Shown here: piece after piece, positions 1,487-62,111 of the stretch
Position numbering within the stretch: the first letter of the stretch is position 1
How the letters are laid out: every line of letters starts with the position of its first letter
NCBI GenBank assembly: GCA_945861535.1
Contig: CAMAUZ010000003.1
Span: 62,001-126,000 of the forward strand
DNA length: 64,000 bases
Direction of reading: 5' to 3'
From: Akkermansia muciniphila
Lineage (GTDB): Bacteria; Verrucomicrobiota; Verrucomicrobiia; Limisphaerales; BJHT01
Notes under the pieces: generated by a model
The model's input: the letters and a program-made list of their open reading frames with translations, nothing else
Told to the model about the DNA's origin: nothing
The model's database searches: none
Position numbers and translations under genes: made by a program

Positions 1487-3064
1487 TCATCGCATGCTGT
1501 CGCGTCGCCAGTCCTCGAAGATCTTTGCCATCGCCTGCACCCGCTCGGGGTCGCGGGCGGCGAGATTGCGCAGTTCGGTGCGGTCGGTGGCGAGGTCGTA
1601 GAGTTCCCACGGGCCGGCCTTGGACGCGACCAGTTTCCACGGGCCGACGCGGACGGCGCGCGCGCCGGAGGTGGCCCAGCACAGCGAGGCGTGGCCGTCG
1701 CGTGAGCCGCCTTGCAGCACGGGCAGCAGGCTCCGGCCCGCCAGCGGCTGCACCTGCCGCCCTGCGAACTGCGCCGGGTATTTCACGCCCGCCAGTTCCA
1801 GACACGTCGCGGTGAGGTCGATGAGGTGCGTCAGTTCATGCGAGATGCCGCCCGTCGGCGCTATCACGCCCGGCCACCACGCGATGAGCGGCGAGGCGAT
1901 GCCGCCTTCGTGGTTGGAGTTTTTGTGCTGGCGGAAGGGCGTGTTTGCGACGTTCGACCACGGCGGGCCGGCGGTGACGAAGTTGTCCGCCGGGCCGGGC
2001 TGGATGTCGGGGCGGTTGCCGACGCGCGTGGGCGTGCCGTCGAGCCGCCACGGCTGGCCGGGCTTGTCGAGCGGCGCGTTCATTGGCTGATCGGAAGCGC
2101 CGTTGTCGGAGAGAAAGAGGACGAGCGTGTTCTTGTCCGCGCCGGTGCGGCGGAGCGCCTCCATCACGCGGCCCACGCTTTGGTCGAGCGAATCCACCTG
2201 CGCAGCGTAGGTGGCCATACGTTCGGCTTCCCAGTCCTTGTCCTTCGCGTTGGCCCACGCGGGCACGCGCGGGTCGCGCGGCGAGAGCTGGCAGTCGGCC
2301 GGGAGCATTCCCAAGGCGACGAGCCGCTGGTGCCGTTGCGCGCGTGCCGCGTCCCAGCCGAGCTGCCGGTAGAGCGCGCGATATTTGGCAATGTCCGCCG
2401 GCTTCGCGTGCAGCGGCCAGTGCGGCGCGTAGTGGGCGAGGTAAAGGAAGAACGGTTTCTCCTTCCCCGCCGCCTCGGTGATGAACTCCGTGGCGAAGTC
2501 CGTGACCAGGTCAGTTTTGTAAACGCCTTCCGTCGGCAGCTTGAACGGCTGGCCGTTCCGATAGAACTCCCCGCCGCGCACGGCCTTGAAATAATTGCCC
2601 GGTCCCGTGTGCCCGGTGCTGCCGAGGAAGCGGTCCACGCAGCGGGAAATCATCACCGGGTCGTGCCAGTTTTCCGCCGTCACCATGTCGAGTCGGCCCG
2701 CGGCGGAGGTGGTGTAGCCCGCGCGGTGGAGCAGCTCGAAGACCGTCACGCAGCGGTTGTTCAGCAGCCCGGTCCAGCCGGAGATGCCCACCTGCTGCGG
2801 GTGCAATCCGGTCATCAGTGCCGCGCGGGACGGCCCGCACAGCGCGCAATTGTAGAACTGCGAGAAGCGCAGCCCGCCCTGCGCCAAGCGGTCGAGGTTC
2901 GGCGTCTGAATCTCGCTGCCGTAACAGCCGAGGTCGGAGAAGCCCATGTCGTCGGCGAGGATGAGGACGATGTTCGGGCGCGCGGCGGGCGGCGGGGCGG
3001 CGGCGGCCGAGGGCGGGAACAGCGGGAGCAGCAGCAAGGCGGCAAGGGCGAAGAGAGGTTTCAT
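1487..3064 (-). CDS. Secreted sulfatase (arylsulfatase A family)
   Basis: This 525-residue type I sulfatase would hydrolyse sulfate esters, probably on polysaccharides, in the periplasm or outside the cell. I chose the ATG at 3064 because it gives a clean signal peptide (MKPLFALAALLLLPLF, then an Ala-rich cleavage region). The ORF continues upstream but that part is repeat-derived. Visible motifs are the metal-binding pair ADD (D38, D39) and the sulfatase signature C76-G-P-S-R80, whose Cys would be converted to formylglycine by a maturase not present in this window. The later HYAPHWPLHA and SDNGA stretches are also typical. Verrucomicrobia often carry many such enzymes for algal or animal sulfated glycans; the substrate cannot be read from the sequence. 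Confidence 0.9.
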   Translation of the reverse strand: MKPLFALAALLLLPLFPPSAAAAPPPAARPNIVLILADDMGFSDLGCYGSEIQTPNLDRLAQGGLRFSQFYNCALCGPSRAALMTGLHPQQVGISGWTGLLNNRCVTVFELLHRAGYTTSAAGRLDMVTAENWHDPVMISRCVDRFLGSTGHTGPGNYFKAVRGGEFYRNGQPFKLPTEGVYKTDLVTDFATEFITEAAGKEKPFFLYLAHYAPHWPLHAKPADIAKYRALYRQLGWDAARAQRHQRLVALGMLPADCQLSPRDPRVPAWANAKDKDWEAERMATYAAQVDSLDQSVGRVMEALRRTGADKNTLVLFLSDNGASDQPMNAPLDKPGQPWRLDGTPTRVGNRPDIQPGPADNFVTAGPPWSNVANTPFRQHKNSNHEGGIASPLIAWWPGVIAPTGGISHELTHLIDLTATCLELAGVKYPAQFAGRQVQPLAGRSLLPVLQGGSRDGHASLCWATSGARAVRVGPWKLVASKAGPWELYDLATDRTELRNLAARDPERVQAMAKIFEDWRRDSMR

Positions 3065-3157
3065 GGCTCGTCGGGGGCGGGAGCAGTATCTGGGCCGTGA
3101 CCGTTCAGTCGAGCCGATTTGGATGCCCCACAGAGATGCGATGGATACCGAGCGGAG

Positions 3158-3640
3158 CAGCCGAAGCGGAGCGCGACCGGCCCCCGGTCGCAGCGGGTAG
3201 GGGCAAGGGAGCAGCGGAATATTCCGACGACCTCGGCACTGCGTACGCACTGCGGGCGGGGATGCCCGGTTCCCGTCCCGGAGGGACGCCGGAGGAAATT
3301 AGCCGGGGGCAAGTCCGCGCCCGCGGACGCCGCCCCCGGAAACCGGGCCGGGCGGCTCGGTGCCCCAGCGGGGCATCGAAGAAAATGACCCGAGGCGACG
3401 GGTGGTGGCGGAAATGCTGCGGGGAGGACACCCCTAAGAATTTCTTCGATGCCCCGCTGGGGCATGCTCCGTTCAGCGGTGCAACCGGGGGCCGCGCCCG
3501 CTGCGCGGGCTTACCCCCGGCTAATCTCCAGCGGGGTCCCTCCGGGACGAAGAGCAAAGCGTTGGTGACAATTCTTTGGTCCCCGGCCGGCGGCCCGGGC
3601 AGCGGCAAAATCCTCGCGGCACGCGAGGATATTTCCCGGA
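3158..3640. repeat. Composite repeat around palindromic element B1
   Basis: The core, 3275-3548, is a 274-bp imperfect inverted repeat. Each arm of about 115 bp runs from GTCCCGGAGGGAC through GATTAGCCGGGGGCAAG-like and GCCCCAGCGGGGCATCGAAG motifs, and the right arm is the reverse complement. Flanking DNA on both sides (from GAAGCGGAGCGCGACCGG at about 3166 to about 3640) is shared with the copy at 11698-12178. This fills most of the 773-bp gap between the divergent sulfatase and cytochrome genes. ORFs across it repeat the peptide PQRGIEE in several frames and are not genes. Confidence 0.85.
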
Positions 3641-3769
3641 GCGCGGCTGTGTGCGCGGAGCACCAGCCGCAGCGGTTTGGCCGCAGGGGACGCCTCGGAT
3701 TCCAACGGATGCCGGCACAGTTTTGGGTCCGCTGCGGCTGGTCCTCGACGGACACAGCAGCGCTCCGGG
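3635..3769. repeat. Palindromic element C1
   Basis: This is an inverted repeat of about 135 bp. The left arm contains GGAGCGCGGCTGTG and GGAGCACCAGCCGCAGCGG. The right arm contains CCGCTGCGGCTGGTCCTCG and ACACAGCAGCGCTCC. It abuts composite B1 directly. A second copy lies at 63593-63717. Confidence 0.8.
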
Positions 3770-3837
3770 TGCTGCGGTCACGCCCGCCGTGGCGGCCAGA
3801 AATAGTTCCGATTGAACGGCGAGTGTCGGCGTCGGAG

Positions 3838-6204
3838 ATGGCGCTGATGACCTTGTTTGCCCGCCCATTTTACCGCGTGTTGGTCGTGTGCTCGCTGCTC
3901 GCCGCCGCCGCCCGCGGCGCGGAATTGAAGCCGTACAACGGCGCGGGCTGCGCGGCCGTGGACGAATATTTTGCCGAAGAAGTCTGGGCCAAGGTGGCCA
4001 CGCACTCGTGCCTGAAATGTCATAAATCCGGGGGCGACGCCGAGGACAGCAAGTTCCTCCTGCTCGATCCCAAGCGCAGCCCGGAAGGTGCCCAGGCGGA
4101 AGCCATGCGGCACAATCGCGACGCCTTCGCCCGGATGGCGCGGCTGAAGGAAAAGGACGCGGGCGACGAATCCCGCCTGCTGCTCAAGGCCGTCGGCAAG
4201 CTCAAGCACGGTGGCGAGGACGCGCTCGCGCCGGATTCACCGGGCTTCCGCGTGCTCGCCGAGTTCGTCCGCCGCGTGAACGCCCCGCCCACGGCACCGC
4301 CGCCGCTCACGATGACCGAGGACAAAAACGCGCCGCCCTTCTTCGACGGCATCGTGATGCTGGACCACCGCCGGCTGGTGCGGCGTGTCACGCTGTCGCT
4401 CGCGGGCCGGCTGCCGACGGCGGCCGAACTCGCCGCGGTTGGCAGCGGGGGCGTGCCGGCGGTGACCACGGTGTTCGACGCGGTGATGCAGGAGGACGCC
4501 TTCTACACGCGGCTGCGCGAGGCTTTCAACGACATCTTCCTCACGGTCGGCGTGGACGGAAATCCCGACCAGTCGGTGCTGTCCTACGAGCATTTTGAGA
4601 AGTCGCGCGGCTGGTATCAAAACACGAACCTGAACAAGGAATTCCTCGCGCCGATCAAGGACGAAAAAGAGCGGCGGCAGGCCGGCTACAAGCTCGCGGA
4701 CGATTATCGCAAGGCGCTGCTGGGCGAGCCGATGAAGCTCATCGAGCACATCGTGCGCAACGACCGGCCCTTCACCGAACTGGTCACGGCGGACTACTTT
4801 ATGGTGTCGCCCTACGGCGCGCGCGGTTACGGGATTTTCGAGGAAGTGAAGGCGAAGTTCAAAAATCCCGCCGACCCGTTCGAGTTCATCCCGGTGAAGT
4901 TGAAGGCGCTCACGGGCCGCAGCAAAAGCGAGAATCAGGAGTCGCCGAGCGGCTTCTATCCGCACGCCGGGCTGCTCAGTTCGTTTCAGTATCTCGCGCG
5001 TTATCCAACCACCGAGACCAACCGCAACCGCCAGCGGGCGCGGGTTTATTACCAGCATTTTCTCGGTGTCGATGTGCTGGAGCTGGCGGCGCGCGTGAGC
5101 GATGCGGCGGCGGTCTCGGCGAAGTATGAGATTCCCACGATGCAGGCCAGCGAGTGCGTGGTGTGCCACAAGACGTTGGACCCGGTCGCGGGCATGTTTC
5201 AGGACTACTGGCGGTTCGAGGGGGTGTACGGCAAGCGGAAGGAGGGGTGGTTCAGGGACATGTTTGGCGCGGGCTACGAGGGCGAGGACCTCCCGGCGAC
5301 CGAGCGCTGGCGCGCGTTGCAGTGGCTCGGCGAGCGCACGGCGAAGGATCCCCGCTTCGCCGTCGCGATGGTCGAGCACGCTTACTATCTGCTGACCGGG
5401 CGCAAGGTTTTGCTACCGCCCAAGGACCTCGAGGACCCGCTCTACGCCGCCAAACGCCGCGCGTATCAGGCGCAGCGCAGGCAGACGGAAACCATTGCCA
5501 CGCGCTTTGCGGCGACGGGTTTCAATTTCAAAAACGTGCTCAAGGATTGGGTCGTCTCGGATTTCTACCGCGCCGATGGGCTGGCGACGGTGGCGGCGAA
5601 TCCGCAGCGCCGCGCGGAGCTGGACGACCTCGGCGTGGTGCGGATGCTCGCGCCGGAGCAGGTCGAGCGGAAGGTGGCGGCGATTTTCGGCAAGGCGTGG
5701 GGTCGCTTGAAACCCGGGGACGGCGGGCTGGACATGCTCTACGGCGGCATCGACTCGAAGGAAGTGACCGAGCGCGCCGCGGACCCGAGCGGCGCGATGG
5801 GCGCGATCCAGCGCATCCTCGCCAATGATGTCGCGTGCAAGCAGACCGCACTGGACTTCAGCCGCCCGCCCAGCGACCGCCGGTTGTTTCCCCAGATCGA
5901 GCCGGACGTGGTGCCGGGTACTTCGCCCGAGGCCGACGCGAAGGTTCGAAAGGCGATTGTACATCTGCACGAGCGCGTGCTCGGCCGCCTGGACGCGCCG
6001 GACGCACCGGAGGTCGAGCGCACCTTCCAGCTTTTCGCCGGCATCGTGAGCGACGCGGCGGCGAAGAATGGCTTTGAAAAACAAGAGAACTACTCCTGCC
6101 GCCAGGGCCTGCTCGCTCCGGTGCCCGACCCGAACTACACCGTCCGCGCCTGGCGCGGCGTGGTGACGTATCTGCTGCGGCAGCACGAATTTCTGTATGA
6201 GTGA
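3838..6204 (+). CDS. Planctomycete-type cytochrome/DUF1549-like secreted protein
   Basis: The protein has 788 residues from the ATG at 3838 (an ATG at 3847 is an alternative). Both give a signal peptide ending around AAAARGAE. The longer upstream ORF runs through repeats B and C and is not used. Two heme-type motifs are visible: C58-LK-C61-H near the N-terminus and C440-VV-C443-H followed by KTLDPVAG, as in the DUF1588-type domain. In between is a DUF1549-like stretch (RLVRRVTLSLAGRLPTAAEL). Proteins of this type are abundant in Planctomycetes and Verrucomicrobia, where they pair with DUF1501 proteins; their function is not established, but periplasmic redox or glycan processing is often suspected. 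The partner is the DUF1501-like gene at 6774, separated from it here by a HicBA module. Confidence 0.8.
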   Translation: MALMTLFARPFYRVLVVCSLLAAAARGAELKPYNGAGCAAVDEYFAEEVWAKVATHSCLKCHKSGGDAEDSKFLLLDPKRSPEGAQAEAMRHNRDAFARMARLKEKDAGDESRLLLKAVGKLKHGGEDALAPDSPGFRVLAEFVRRVNAPPTAPPPLTMTEDKNAPPFFDGIVMLDHRRLVRRVTLSLAGRLPTAAELAAVGSGGVPAVTTVFDAVMQEDAFYTRLREAFNDIFLTVGVDGNPDQSVLSYEHFEKSRGWYQNTNLNKEFLAPIKDEKERRQAGYKLADDYRKALLGEPMKLIEHIVRNDRPFTELVTADYFMVSPYGARGYGIFEEVKAKFKNPADPFEFIPVKLKALTGRSKSENQESPSGFYPHAGLLSSFQYLARYPTTETNRNRQRARVYYQHFLGVDVLELAARVSDAAAVSAKYEIPTMQASECVVCHKTLDPVAGMFQDYWRFEGVYGKRKEGWFRDMFGAGYEGEDLPATERWRALQWLGERTAKDPRFAVAMVEHAYYLLTGRKVLLPPKDLEDPLYAAKRRAYQAQRRQTETIATRFAATGFNFKNVLKDWVVSDFYRADGLATVAANPQRRAELDDLGVVRMLAPEQVERKVAAIFGKAWGRLKPGDGGLDMLYGGIDSKEVTERAADPSGAMGAIQRILANDVACKQTALDFSRPPSDRRLFPQIEPDVVPGTSPEADAKVRKAIVHLHERVLGRLDAPDAPEVERTFQLFAGIVSDAAAKNGFEKQENYSCRQGLLAPVPDPNYTVRAWRGVVTYLLRQHEFLYE

Positions 6205-6293
6205 GAGCTGGGCACCGCCGTTGAATTCCACGAGTTGCGATGAGGGGTGGGGCACAGGCTTGCCACGACGACCGTCCAAACTAGAGTCGTAAA

Positions 6294-6506
6294 ATGAAAA
6301 GCATCCATGCGGTTTTCCAAAGCGATGGCGAGTGGTTCATTGCCCGATGCCTTGATTTTCCCGTGACCACGCAGGGCAAGACGCTGGCTGCCGCACGGAA
6401 AAATCTTCAGGAAGCAGTGGAACTCTATCTGGAAACCTGGGGTGACACGGACGGCGGCAAACCGCTACGGGAAGTCTATCTCACCCAAATGGAAGTGGCC
6501 GCATGA
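6294..6506 (+). CDS. hicB: HicB-family antitoxin (module 1)
   Basis: This 70-residue protein has the compact HicB fold: a beta-strand start (MKSIHAVFQSDGEWFIARC), then PVTTQGKTLAAARKNLQEAVELY. HicB neutralises the HicA mRNA interferase and usually represses its own operon. It ends by an ATGA overlap with the downstream hicA gene, so the two are translationally coupled in B-then-A order. It has no separate C-terminal DNA-binding domain, as in short HicB forms. The module sits between two genes that elsewhere form a pair. Confidence 0.88.
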   Translation: MKSIHAVFQSDGEWFIARCLDFPVTTQGKTLAAARKNLQEAVELYLETWGDTDGGKPLREVYLTQMEVAA

Positions 6507-6733
6507 GCCGGCATCTGCCAGCCATCTCGGGCCGGAAATTGCTCCGCGCCCTGCAACGTGCCGGGTTTGTGGTGCTCCGGCAGAAAGGCAGCCATGTTTC
6601 GATGGAGAAACGCGGCGCAGACCGCCGTTGGCGAACGGTGGTTCCGCTGCATCGCGAAATCCGGCCGGGAACCCTGAGCGACATCCTCAACCAAACCGGC
6701 CTGAGCAAAGACGAGCTGGCAGACCTGCTTTGA
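6503..6733 (+). CDS. hicA: HicA-family toxin (module 1)
   Basis: This 76-residue protein of the HicA/YcfA-like family has a dsRNA-binding-like fold and acts as a translation-independent mRNA interferase. The family pattern is clear: SGRKLLRALQRAGFVVLRQKGSHVSM with the catalytic-type GSH (His of KGSHV), then TVVPLHREIRPGTLSDILNQTGLSKDEL. It overlaps hicB by 4 bp. The sequence is intact, so the module may be active. Confidence 0.88.
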   Translation: MSRHLPAISGRKLLRALQRAGFVVLRQKGSHVSMEKRGADRRWRTVVPLHREIRPGTLSDILNQTGLSKDELADLL

Positions 6734-26082: not shown

Positions 26083-26152
26083 GTAGCCACCGACGTGAGG
26101 AGGCGGTTTCCGGATACTCGGCGAGTTCTCCCCGCCTCGTCACCTCGACGGC
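26083..26152. repeat. Inverted-repeat element G1
   Basis: The element begins GTAGCCACCGACGTGAGGAG and ends in CCGCCTCGTCACCTCGACGGC-like sequence, a degenerate copy of the G family. Better copies are at 36174 and 62036. A half copy of K follows at 26193-26224. Confidence 0.7.
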
Positions 26153-26311
26153 AACGGCCTCCCACGGAGGAAACAGCGCGCTCCGCAGCTCTCTGCGTCC
26201 TTTCCCATCTCTGCGGCGTTCTGCTTCACCCCTTTCCCCGCCGGGCGCGCAGACGCCACGAGGGCTCCGACGCTCGAGCCGAACATAGAAGCGAAGCCAC
26301 CTCCTCCTCCC

Positions 26312-33904: not shown

Positions 33905-36900
33905 ATGTCTTTCTGGACCCTCATCCTCCGCAGCCTCCGCCACCATGCACGCGAGCATTTCGGCGTGCTGCTTGGCGCGACGGTCGGCAGCGCCGTGCTC
34001 ATCGGTGCGCTGCTCGTCGGCGACTCCGTGCGCGGCAGCCTGCGCGACATGGCGCTCAAACGCCTCGGCCCCATCGACACCGCCCTGACCTCCGGCGACC
34101 GCCTCTTCCGCGCCGATCTCGCCACTGATCCCCGCCTCGCCGCCGCGCCTGTCCTCGCGCTCCCCGGCACCGCCAACTCGAGTGATGGCACGCACCGCGC
34201 CAATCGCGTCCATATTTACGGCGTCGCGGAAACCTTCTGGAAACTGGCGCACCCAATCCCTTCCGCGACCGAGACCGAGACCAACGGCGTCATCTTGAAT
34301 CAGCCCCTCGCCGAACAGCTCGCCGCCAAAGTCGGCGATGAAGTTCTCCTCCGCGTGACCAAAGTCTCTGCGCTGTCGCAAGAAGTCTCGCTCACCCCTC
34401 GCGACGGCCAAACCACCGTGCTACGCCTTCCCGTCATCCGTATCCAGCCTTCCTACCGTCTCGGCAACTTCAGTCTCCAAGCCAATCAGATCGCGCCGTT
34501 CAACGCCTTCGTAAATCTTGCCCTGCTTCAGGAGCGCGCCGGGGCCACCGGCCGCGCGAACCTGATGCTGCGTGGACAACCTCCAAGCGCTCCAAATGTC
34601 ACCTACATTGCCAACACCGCCTTGCCGCAAATCTGGAAGCTCGCCGACACCCAGCTCGAACTGCGCCCGGTTCCATCCGCGACAAACACCAACGGGCAGG
34701 TAGAATTCCTCCACGATTCCTACCCCGAGCACCTCCTTGATCCGACACTCTTTTGGAAACGGGTCGGTGACCAGATGCAATGGCGTACAGATGCCATGTA
34801 TCCGTGGGGTATTTCTTTTGCCGGCCTGAGCCCACGCAATCTGCAAGAATACTTCCTTGAGCCCTCCTTGCTGTGGGGCCGTGTAGGTGCGCTTCTGGAT
34901 CCATCCCGTAATTTCGGGGGCAATCTGTGGATTTCGTTCATTGATGGCACTCAACTCGGGGTCCGAATCCGATCGACGCCTGCTTCCACCCAGCCCCAGC
35001 TCGAACTCCGCACCCCCCGCATCTTCCTCGACCCGCCCGCCGTCCACGCCGCGCTCGCCGTGGACACCAACGCGCGGCCCGTCCTCACCTTCCTCGTCAA
35101 TCTCCTCCGTGCCGGCGAACGCACCACGCCCTACTCGATGGTCACCGCCGCCACCGCCCCGCTCGTGCCCGCCGATTTGCGCGATGACGAAATCGTCCTC
35201 AGCCAATGGCTCGCGGACGACCTGAAGATCGGCCCCGGCGCGGAGGTGGCGCTCACTTATTTTCTGCCCGACTCCGGCGCGCGATTGCTCGAGGCGACCA
35301 ATCGTTTCCGCGTCCGCTCCATCGTGCCGCTGGAACTGCCGTGGGCCGACCGCACGCTCATGCCCGATTTCCCCGGCATCGCCCAGGCCGAGCGCGCGGG
35401 CGACTGGGACGCCGGCTTCCCGCTCGCGCACAAGATTCGCAAAGAAGACGACGAATACTGGGCCAAATGGCGCGGCACCCCGAAGGCCTTCGTGACGCTG
35501 AACGCCGGGAGGAAAATGTGGGCCAATCGGTTTGGGGACACGACGGGCGTTCGCTTTTCGATGCCCACGAGTGGAACCAACGCCGCGCCGGGCCAAGGCG
35601 AAAAGTTAGAGTCTCCTAACGTCGTCTCCTACCAGGCGGGACTGGAGCAACGGCTGCTCGCACAGCTCAAGCCCGCGGACTTCGGCCTGACGTTTCAGCC
35701 CGTGCGGGCGCAGGCGCTCGCGGCGAGTTCGCAGGGACAGGACTTTGGCGGACTCTTCATCGGTTTCAGCTTCTTCCTGATCATTGCGGCGTGCGTGCTG
35801 GTGGCGCTGCTCTTCCAGTTCGGCATCGAACAACGCGCGCAGGAAATCGGCACATTGCTCGCGCTCGGCTTCACGCCGCCGCAGGTGCGGCGCCTCCTGC
35901 TCGGCGAAGGCGCGGGACTGGCGCTGCTCGGCGCGTTGCTCGGTGCGGCGGGCGCGGTCTGGTATGCGCGCGCCATGTTGCACGCGCTCTCGACCGTGTG
36001 GCGCGACGCCGTCGGCACGAGCGACCTGTATTTCCACGCCGAGCCGGCGACGCTCGCGGGCGGCATCATCGGCAGCGTCCTCGTCGCCGTCTTCACCCTC
36101 TGGCTCGCCCTGCGCAAACAAGTCCAACGCCCCGCCCGCGAACTCCTCGCCGGTGGCGGAGAAGAGCATGACGGTAGCCGCCGACATGAGGAGGCGGAGC
36201 GCGGAACGTCCGGGGCCGTCCGCCTCCTCACGTCGGCGGCTACAAGCGGCGGCCGCGCCGCGCTCCTCGGTCTCGCGAGCCTCGTCTGCGGCCTCGGCCT
36301 CGTCGGCTACGCTCTCGTCACGGCGCAAACTTCTGCCGCCGGTCTTTTCTTCGGCGCGGGCGCGCTGCTGCTGATCGCGGCGCTCGCGTTCACCTCGGCC
36401 CTGCTCTCCCGCCTCGAATGCTCTGCCACCGCCGCGCGCCTCACGCTCGCGGGCATGGGCCTGCGCAGCGCCACGCGCCGTCGCCGCCGCAGCCTCGCCA
36501 CGGTCGCGATGCTCGCGTGCGGGAGTTTTCTGATCGTGAGCATTGGCGCATTTCGCCTCGATGAAAACGTGAACGCGACCCAGCGCTCCTCCGGCACCGG
36601 CGGCTTTGCCTTCCTCGGCGAAAGCACGCTCCCCGTCACCGCCGACCTCAACACCGTACGCGGCCGCGAATCCCTCGGCCTCGCCGCCACCGCGCTCACC
36701 AACGTCAGCGTCGTCCCCCTCCGCCTCCGCGACGGCGATGACGCGAGCTGTCTGAATCTCAACCGTGCGCAAAAGCCGCGCCTGCTTGGCGTGAAACCCG
36801 AGCTGCTCGCCGAGCGCGGCGCGTTCAATTTCGCCAGCGTCGCGAAGGGATTGTCGAAAGAGAAACCGTGGCTGCTGTTGTCGGCTCCAACCGCTTCCGG

Positions 36901-37642
36901 TGCGAACGCCCCAGCCGCCAGCAACGAAATCCCCGGCATCGCCGACGAAGCCTCGATCCTCTGGGCGCTCGGCAAAAAACTCGGTGACACGCTCGATTTC
37001 ACCGACGAACGCGGCCAGGCCTTCCGCGTCCGGCTCGTCGCCGCGCTCGCGAACTCGGTCCTTCAAGGCAACATCGTCATCGCCGAAGACGCCTTCACCG
37101 CGCGCTTCCCCGGCGAGAGCGGCCACCGCTTTTTCCTCGTGGACGCCCCGCCCGAGCGCGCATCCGACGCAGCCGCGCAACTCACCCGCGCCTTGCGCGA
37201 CAGCGGCCTCGAACTCACGCCCGCCACGCGCCGCCTCGCCCAGTTCAACGCCGTGCAAAACACCTACCTCGGCACTTTTCAAATCCTCGGCGGCCTCGGC
37301 CTGCTGCTCGGCAGCGTCGGCCTCGGCGTGGTGGTGCTGCGCAACGTCCTCGAGCGCCGTGGCGAGCTGGCCCTGCTCCTCGCCGTCGGTTTCCGTCCGC
37401 GCTCGCTCAAATGGCTGCTCGTCAGCGAACACGGCGCGCTGCTGCTCATCGGCCTCGGCGGCGGCGTGGTCGCGGCTGCCGTCGCCGTCCTGCCCGCACT
37501 CATGACCCCGAACACGCCGCTTCCCATTGCGACCCTGAGCCTGACCCTCGGCGGCGTGCTCTTGAACGGCGCGCTCTGGACCCTCGCCGCCACCGCGCTG
37601 GCCTTGCGCGGCAATCTGTTGGATGCTCTGCGTAACAATTGA
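33905..37642 (+). CDS. Giant FtsX/MacB-type permease with in-frame repeat insertions
   Basis: The protein has 1245 residues. It starts MSFWTLILRSLRHHAREHFG with the first membrane helix (VLLGATVGSAVLIGALLVGD). A MacB-type extracytoplasmic domain follows, then three helices at about 610-740 (GGLFIGFSFFLIIAACVLVA), a linker, a second set of helices and another periplasmic domain, and a final group of three helices (LLLGSVGLGVVVLRNVLERR onward). This is the double-FtsX layout of lipoprotein- or exporter-type ABC permeases; the ATPase is not adjacent. Two intergenic repeat types lie in frame within it: a half I element (35605-35632, residues about 567-576) and a full G element (36174-36243, residues about 757-780, encoding RLLTSAATS). 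The segment 34690-34990 is visibly lower in GC than the rest. Confidence 0.85.
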   Translation: MSFWTLILRSLRHHAREHFGVLLGATVGSAVLIGALLVGDSVRGSLRDMALKRLGPIDTALTSGDRLFRADLATDPRLAAAPVLALPGTANSSDGTHRANRVHIYGVAETFWKLAHPIPSATETETNGVILNQPLAEQLAAKVGDEVLLRVTKVSALSQEVSLTPRDGQTTVLRLPVIRIQPSYRLGNFSLQANQIAPFNAFVNLALLQERAGATGRANLMLRGQPPSAPNVTYIANTALPQIWKLADTQLELRPVPSATNTNGQVEFLHDSYPEHLLDPTLFWKRVGDQMQWRTDAMYPWGISFAGLSPRNLQEYFLEPSLLWGRVGALLDPSRNFGGNLWISFIDGTQLGVRIRSTPASTQPQLELRTPRIFLDPPAVHAALAVDTNARPVLTFLVNLLRAGERTTPYSMVTAATAPLVPADLRDDEIVLSQWLADDLKIGPGAEVALTYFLPDSGARLLEATNRFRVRSIVPLELPWADRTLMPDFPGIAQAERAGDWDAGFPLAHKIRKEDDEYWAKWRGTPKAFVTLNAGRKMWANRFGDTTGVRFSMPTSGTNAAPGQGEKLESPNVVSYQAGLEQRLLAQLKPADFGLTFQPVRAQALAASSQGQDFGGLFIGFSFFLIIAACVLVALLFQFGIEQRAQEIGTLLALGFTPPQVRRLLLGEGAGLALLGALLGAAGAVWYARAMLHALSTVWRDAVGTSDLYFHAEPATLAGGIIGSVLVAVFTLWLALRKQVQRPARELLAGGGEEHDGSRRHEEAERGTSGAVRLLTSAATSGGRAALLGLASLVCGLGLVGYALVTAQTSAAGLFFGAGALLLIAALAFTSALLSRLECSATAARLTLAGMGLRSATRRRRRSLATVAMLACGSFLIVSIGAFRLDENVNATQRSSGTGGFAFLGESTLPVTADLNTVRGRESLGLAATALTNVSVVPLRLRDGDDASCLNLNRAQKPRLLGVKPELLAERGAFNFASVAKGLSKEKPWLLLSAPTASGANAPAASNEIPGIADEASILWALGKKLGDTLDFTDERGQAFRVRLVAALANSVLQGNIVIAEDAFTARFPGESGHRFFLVDAPPERASDAAAQLTRALRDSGLELTPATRRLAQFNAVQNTYLGTFQILGGLGLLLGSVGLGVVVLRNVLERRGELALLLAVGFRPRSLKWLLVSEHGALLLIGLGGGVVAAAVAVLPALMTPNTPLPIATLSLTLGGVLLNGALWTLAATALALRGNLLDALRNN
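35601..35632. repeat. Half element I inside the permease gene
   Basis: From 35605 the sequence GTTAGAGTCTCCTAACGTCG plus TCTCCTAC matches one arm of the intergenic I element (reverse complement of 39216-39243) with a single mismatch in 28. It is read in frame as KLESPNVVSY. Confidence 0.8.
36174..36243. repeat. Full element G2 inside the permease gene
   Basis: It starts GTAGCCGCCGACATGAGGAG and ends CCTCCTCACGTCGGCGGCTAC-like. The last 33 bases are identical to those of intergenic G5 (62079-62111). It is read through without a stop and adds about 23 residues to a linker between membrane domains. Confidence 0.88.
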
Positions 37643-43506: not shown

Positions 43507-43956
43507 ACTGTCCACGAACCGGAGCGCCGAGCATTGCTCGGCACGACCCCGCCCCGTTGGCACAGGCCGCGCAATGCTCGGCGCTCCGATGCCCAAGGGT
43601 ACCGCAGGCGTCCTCGCCTGCGAGTTCGCGGGGCGTCTCGCCCCGAGTCGGTACGGGCGGCGAGACGCCGCCCGAACTCGCAGGCGGGACGCCTGCGGTA
43701 CGAAGCTGCGCGGACTTTTTGCCCGGCACTTTTTCTCCCCTGGCTCGCTGAAGCGGCCTGAAGGCCGCGCTCCGGGGAGCGCACGCCGCTGGCGTGCAGT
43801 TTTCGGCGGCCCGCCGAAAACTTCGTTCCACATACTTTTCCCCGTAGAAGAAAAGGCTGACTGGGGAACGATGGTTTGGGCGGGCCGCCCAAACCAGCAC
43901 GCGGGCCGCGTGCGCTCCCCGTCGTGTTTCCAAATTCGAGTTCATTTCCACCTGCC
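43507..43956. repeat. Composite repeat block (Q, D2, half A, F2)
   Basis: This 450-bp gap is almost wholly repeats. Q at 43520-43587 has arms GGAGCGCCGAGCATTGCTCG and its inverse. D2 at 43598-43702 is an inverted 105-bp copy of D1. A half A motif (GCGGCCTGAAGGCCGC) lies at about 43754-43770. F2 at 43774-43920 has the same length as F1. It separates the DUF1553 and DUF1501 genes. Confidence 0.85.
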
Positions 43957-51332: not shown

Positions 51333-51348
51333 GCGCAGCCCGGCATGC

Positions 51349-51370
51349 AGCCGCCGACGTGAGGAGGCGG
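51349..51370. repeat. Half element G3
   Basis: GCAGCCGCCGACGTGAGGAG begins one arm of family G, without its partner. It lies between eno and its terminator. Confidence 0.65.
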
Positions 51371-51383
51371 ATCGTTTTCCCAC

Positions 51384-55219: not shown

Positions 55220-55589
55220 TGTAGCCGCCGACGTGAGGAGGCGGACGCCCTCGCCGGAGCGCCCGATCCGCCTGCCAACGTTCCCCCCCGCCATTTTCGG
55301 TTACGATGGCTCCATGCTGCGCCTTTTTATGGCGCTCGGGTTCTCCTCCTGTCGGCTCTTACGGGGACCGCCTGTGACGCGTTTTCATCCCTGTTCAAAA
55401 GGCCTCCCGCAGATTCAGGGAGGCCAACAGATGAAAGTCCGCCATCTGTGGGCCTCCCTGAATCTGCGGGAGGAATCCGCTGGATCAGCGGCGGGCGGCG
55501 CCTGCCAACGTTCCTCCCGCCATTTTCGGGTACGATGGCCCCATGCTGCGCCGTTTCGGCGCTCGGGTTCTCCTCACCTCGGCGGCTAC
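55220..55589. repeat. Composite: element G4 containing direct repeats and a hairpin
   Basis: Ends are those of family G (GTAGCCGCCGACGTGAGGAG at 55220 and CCTCGGCGGCTAC at 55589). Inside are two direct copies of an 80-bp unit (55269-55348 and 55499-55575, sharing GCCTGCCAACGTTCC, CGCCATTTTCGG and ATGCTGCGCC). Between them is a hairpin with 31-bp arms at 55403-55433 and 55443-55473 (one mismatch, 9-base loop). No gene is supported here. Confidence 0.82.
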
Positions 55590-61955: not shown

Positions 61956-62111
61956 AACCACGGATGGACACGGATGAACACGGATGGGGACGGGGAGGAG
62001 CGCGGCGTTTACGCCGCAGGGGCGTGGTCGAAATGGTAGCCGCCGAGGTGACGAGGCGGAGGACGGGACGCGCGATTGCGGGGCCGTCCGCCTCCTCACG
62101 TCGGCGGCTAC
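61956..62111. repeat. Repeats between cdsA and dxr, including G5
   Basis: AACCACGGATGGACACGGAT followed by GAACACGGATGGG at about 61958-61989 is a widely seen type of short dispersed repeat. G5 at 62036-62111 is a full G element (GTAGCCGCCGAGGTGACGAG ... CACGTCGGCGGCTAC), the best intergenic match to the copy inside the permease gene. Confidence 0.82.

Follow-up and report, generated by a model that had tools for sequence, protein, structure and literature searches.

A palindromic REP-type repeat read in frame in an FtsX/MacB-type permease gene, and recurrent palindrome insertions in the same permease loops

How does a palindromic repeat come to lie, in frame, in the middle of a membrane transporter gene, and what has allowed it to stay there? 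The question is raised by a 70-bp repeat (the G element) in the stretch of 64,000 nucleotides analysed here (the window). The initial annotation had placed a complete copy at 36174-36243 within an uninterrupted gene of 1245 codons, and both the coordinates and the open frame, running from the ATG at 33905 to the TGA at 37640-37642, are exact; so is the identity it had noted between the final 33 bases of the element and positions 62079-62111. The features concerned are as follows.

33905 to 37639, plus strand: FtsX/MacB-type ABC transporter permease gene hosting the insert (from the open reading frame and Pfam).
36158 to 36268, plus strand: linker of about residues 752-788, behind the first FtsX domain, where unrelated palindromes have landed recurrently in other lineages.
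36174 to 36243, plus strand: G element, a head-to-head REP dimer, in frame (permease residues 757-780).
36174 to 36198, plus strand: left REP arm, GTAG-CCGCC-GACATGAGGA-GGCGG-A.
36199 to 36218, plus strand: spacer of 20 nt separating the arms, contributing to the linker peptide.
36219 to 36243, minus strand: right REP arm, with no mismatch to the consensus.
62036 to 62111, plus strand: intergenic G copy with the common last 33 bases.
26083 to 26155, plus strand: diverged G copy.
51347 to 51371, plus strand: lone G arm.
55221 to 55245, plus strand: lone G arm.

Pfam finds FtsX in two stretches of the host protein (the best at residues 625-745, in a 1250-codon reading) and MacB_PCD below threshold, which together identify a permease of the FtsX/MacB type; matches to it were found in 56 of the 58 related genomes searched. 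The insert, which adds about 22 amino acids, directly follows the first FtsX domain, and in an AlphaFold2 model of residues 601-870 it falls between two long helices with a confidence of about 50, so that it is probably a translated, unstructured linker between two membrane helices. Since the positive residues LRKQVQRPAR precede the insert, the linker is predicted to face the cytoplasm. Elsewhere in the same protein, a segment of 104 residues (258-361; 34676-34987) occurs in the window gene only, being missing from all other orthologs including that of the sister species, and a search of 30 genomes gave no clear relatives of it.

The element is an inverted repeat of two 25-nt arms, 96% complementary, with 20 nt between them, and the region folds as RNA at -60.5 kcal/mol (z = -7.5 against shuffles). 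An Rfam scan of the hairpin gave nothing above threshold; the sub-threshold resemblance to animal microRNA hairpins is taken as the chance likeness of any long hairpin. Two of the three forward frames of the element are stop-free, while the second contains stops (TAG, TGA); the host gene reads it in the third, as SRRHEEAERGTSGAVRLLTSAA, and the peptide stretch across the insert is GSRRHEEAERGTSGAVRLLTSAATS. The arm pattern (up to three mismatches) is matched seven times in the 64-kb window, against none expected from 100 shuffles.

Each arm consists of GTAG followed by a stem-loop, CCGCC-GACGTGAGGA-GGCGG. The tetranucleotide is terminal and adjoins the stem-loop, as in GTAG-tagged REPs (consensus GTAGCCGCCGACGTGAGGAGGCGGA); the arms are imperfect palindromes of 25 bp, within the 20-40 bp of REPs, with a 5-bp stem and about 327 copies in the genome; and two of them in inverted orientation, with a short spacer, make one hairpin, as in REPINs and BIMEs. 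Among sites of the form GTAG-N5-GAsGTrAsGA-N5, four types of perfectly complementary stem occur (CCGCC/GGCGG, GAGTC/GACTC, GAGCC/GGCTC and GAGAC/GTCTC). In the sister-genome sample (G001) there were 32 perfect non-consensus stems, against at most 27 in each of 1000 shuffles; the window-genome sample (G000) showed no such excess (4, against a shuffle mean of 4.2). Because each arm thus combines GTAG with a stem-loop with compensatory stems, the G element is a head-to-head, REPIN/BIME-like dimer of GTAG-tagged REPs.

This identification bears on a parallel that the initial annotation had drawn with the Rickettsia palindromic elements, which are about 150 bp long and lie in frame within functionally unrelated genes (PMC10969869). 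The parallel holds for the way the repeat behaves, since G too is a palindromic repeat inserted and translated in frame within unrelated genes; it fails for the sequence class, since the repeats of Rickettsia conorii carry the tag CGTC (Di Nocera et al., 2013; PMC3733652), whereas G is a 70-bp REP dimer tagged GTAG. Membership of G in the Rickettsia elements is accordingly rejected on account of the tag. Nor is the phenomenon new to the Verrucomicrobia, where the initial annotation knew of no such description for this repeat: GTAG REPs have been reported in the PVC group, with intragenic ones most numerous in Opitutus terrae, where dimers insert 20-30 residues in frame and DnaE2 is among the host genes (Di Nocera et al., 2013; PMC3733652). 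G resembles the O. terrae repeats in its GTAG tag, stem-loop, head-to-head dimers, insert length and DnaE2 host, and differs in that its family is found largely in another order, a likeness drawn from description rather than from consensus sequence. Intragenic in-frame GTAG REPs are therefore an already known kind, of which G is a further member.

In the window genome, 176 + 151 arms (about 327) were found with up to three mismatches, and a reversed-pattern control gave none. At least one arm with up to two mismatches occurs in 101 of 320 genomes of the order, and arms with at most one mismatch in only 3 of 387 other genomes sampled in the phylum; the family occurs largely within this order. 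A sample of 117 elements comprised 61 head-to-head pairs (length modes 70 and 76) and 56 single arms. As is usual for REPs, most lay outside genes: 69 were intergenic, 22 overlapped a gene end and 26 lay inside a called ORF, about eight of these last having coding signal on both sides (a census that depends on the 117 sampled elements and on a home-made codon-usage gene caller). The search for further in-frame copies that the initial annotation had proposed thus yielded about 8 of 117, in genes for this permease, an MFS transporter, CstA, a multihaem-cytochrome-like protein, two PSD1/DUF1553 proteins, a WD40 protein and DnaE2. Since some 74% of contig C3 is called coding, survival within genes is rare. 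The DnaE2 gene (L207, G000:C20:5700-15000; ORF 2664-6635, minus strand) itself carries several G arms, some of them between the HHH and OB domains.

When did G enter the permease gene? In an alignment with 53 other ortholog rows, the insert is present, in frame, in the same-genus relative alone (L041/L070, 92% identical over the main segment); orthologs without the repeat did not show a similar conserved peptide here, which the initial annotation had named as the finding that would tell against an insertion. Within the insert the two species differ at 3 of 72 aligned bases (two replacement changes and one silent), compared with 10.4% in the rest of the gene. Their orthologs pair with 100% support in a tree of 49 orthologs (built only from alignment columns in which 70% or more of the rows are occupied, its deeper forks being partly unresolved), and from these positions the insertion is older than the split of the two species and younger than the split from L094, L071 and L073. 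It very probably took place, as one part of the account that we favor, in the common ancestor of these two species of the genus.

The orthologs show that this linker has been entered more than once. It has 12-31 codons in most of them and 45-73 in L048, L076, L101/L063, L094 and L100, where the extra DNA is strongly palindromic, so that in-frame palindromes occupy the linker in five lineages beyond the window/sister pair. When 54 ortholog genes (188 kb) were scanned, long inverted repeats proved to be clustered, in frame, at four places, namely the linker and window residues of about 557-571, 836-847 and 984-1006, and codon-shuffled control genes had none; three more matches (L071, L060, L044) map ahead of the first window residue. 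The inserts are mostly bounded by GTAG/CTAC or GGAG/CTCC (the exception being the CCCTCACCCC...GGTGAGGG type at 557-571), they fall into at least six sequence types across the order, and their sequences recur elsewhere in their own genomes. G itself is present at 836-847 in L077. On the ortholog tree, the fewest changes at the four sites are 6+3+3+2, a minimum of 14 insertion events, in a count that leaves out a few weaker inserts seen at the protein level only. Close relatives may differ: L094 has a 186-bp insert, and L071 (86% identical to it) and L073 (85%) have none. When the 34 inter-anchor loops are ranked by length variation in the 37 palindrome-free orthologs, the inserted sites come 4th, 6th, 8th and 9th, and it is this variation in uninserted proteins that marks them as loops that accept indels. 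Apparent single REPs of the G superfamily with changed stems were also seen, in L094 (aligned with 557-571; e.g. GTAGGAGCCGACGTGAGGAGGCTC) and in L072 (984-1006). The recurrent insertion of different repeat families at these loops lies outside the coordinates that the initial annotation had considered.

We think it likely, with good confidence, that these are surviving REP insertions, presumably mobilized by RAYT-type transposases and tolerated in loops that tolerate indels. A REP dimer would have entered the permease gene in the ancestor of the two species, moved by a RAYT-type (TnpA-REP) transposase that works on single-stranded DNA, and would then have been kept as a translated linker whose peptide is presumably near-neutral. 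The insertion survived because the frame was kept, because one of the two stop-free frames was entered and because the loop was tolerant of a change in length; the same survival filter accounts for the unrelated REP-type palindromes at the linker and at three other loops in other lineages. The description of G as an in-frame insertion of a mobile-type repeat is upheld.

The movement of REPs is attributed to RAYT (TnpA-REP) transposases, which recognize the GTAG motif and the palindrome to degrees that differ among the systems tested (PMC8266576). The window genome has nine Y1_Tnp matches, and its RAYT genes are flanked by GTAG/GGAG palindromes other than G. Palindromes lie on both sides of RAYT-like locus L037 (GGAGCGCCGAGC... 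/ GGAGCGCCGAGCATTGCTCGGC, the type inserted at 836-847 in L072) and of L039 (GTAGCTCGACATTCC... / GTAGCTCGACATTCCAATGTCGAG). No clean G arm flanked a RAYT at the 59 Y1_Tnp loci considered, a subset of the Y1_Tnp matches from this genome and from 14 relatives that carry G; one locus alone, L134, had a degenerate G pair within its flanks. This result counts against the account given above, in which mobilization of G by a RAYT-type transposase is an inference.

Could the permease loops instead be preferred landing sites, several RAYT/REP systems having hit the same single-stranded sites and the inserts having been kept through selection on a DNA or RNA hairpin? We regard this as unlikely; if it were true, mobile repeats would supply proteins with new linkers time after time throughout a bacterial order.

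Also unlikely is co-option of this insert, in which the DNA, the RNA hairpin or the peptide would have a function (for example in slowing translation between the membrane domains, or as a regulatory linker) and would be kept by selection. Strong hairpins at the permease linker in several lineages speak for it, as does the comparison with the sister genome. In-gene arms show 5 differences in 250 bases (2.0%) between the two species, against 9.8% in their flanks (binomial P 8.5e-7); for arms outside genes the count is 15 in 300, against 10.3% in the flanks. On the sister branch alone, in-gene arms have 3 mismatches to the consensus where about 12 would be expected (P 0.0015); no excess conservation is seen on that branch for arms outside genes (P 0.23). 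Conservation of in-gene arms thus exceeds the pure-neutral prediction, and is a hint, the main one, against pure neutrality, from a small sample and a test partly biased by the picking of window-genome copies for their similarity to the consensus. Against co-option, the majority of orthologs have no insert at all, the peptides differ from lineage to lineage, and the two replacement changes beside one silent change in the permease insert give no sign of protein-level constraint.

It is improbable that G is a non-REP MITE, moved by a classical transposase of the IS630/Tc1 type that duplicates TA. The element can be read as TA...TA, the terminal TA then being a duplicated target, which would make the net insertion 66 bp, a multiple of three; but in-gene dimers of 70, 83, 73, 75 and 68 leave no single remainder modulo three, nearly half of the sampled elements (56/117) are arms standing alone, and GTAG with a stem-loop and compensatory stems is the anatomy of a REP. 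Nor did the 16 sites comparable with the sister species, 12 of them shared, give an empty site showing a TA target; that they gave no clean empty site and no target duplication for G counts against the preferred REP reading as well. Of the copies compared within genes other than DnaE2, six are shared and one is not. Sites without G usually have other sequence in its place, such as another GTAG palindrome (the L189 site); in a PSD1 (DUF1553) gene, the window genome has a G dimer (L023 1501-1568) and the sister a different palindrome at the same spot (L254). Formation of the palindrome in place, or an assembly error, for which nothing was found in favor, can be dismissed, since the same insert stands in the independent assembly of the second species and hundreds of arms matching its own lie at other places in the genome.

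With surviving, tolerated REP insertions as the preferred reading, the comparison with known systems shows where this permease stands apart. Like the REPINs of Pseudomonas fluorescens, which are inverted REP pairs in one long hairpin, of high copy number and with RAYT transposases (Bertels and Rainey, 2011; PMC3116915), G is a high-copy inverted pair; unlike them, it was found with no linked RAYT and has copies in frame within genes. In-frame REP insertions have so far usually been scattered single cases, and Di Nocera et al. (2013; PMC3733652) note one case of insertion at the same site, in recB of Xanthomonas, compared with at least 14 events, in four loops and with several repeat types, in the one gene considered here. 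This recurrence of several families in a single gene is, as far as the literature searched shows, the new part. With close relatives that lack the inserts, the permease constitutes a replicated natural experiment, in which one can ask directly if mobile palindromes amount to noise that is tolerated or regularly supply proteins with linkers, and which of the two is kept, the hairpin or the peptide.

Outside genes, the window also has an intergenic region at about 43508-43949 (G000:C3:105508-105949) in which several palindromes are stacked; at this place the sister species has hardly more than a G element.
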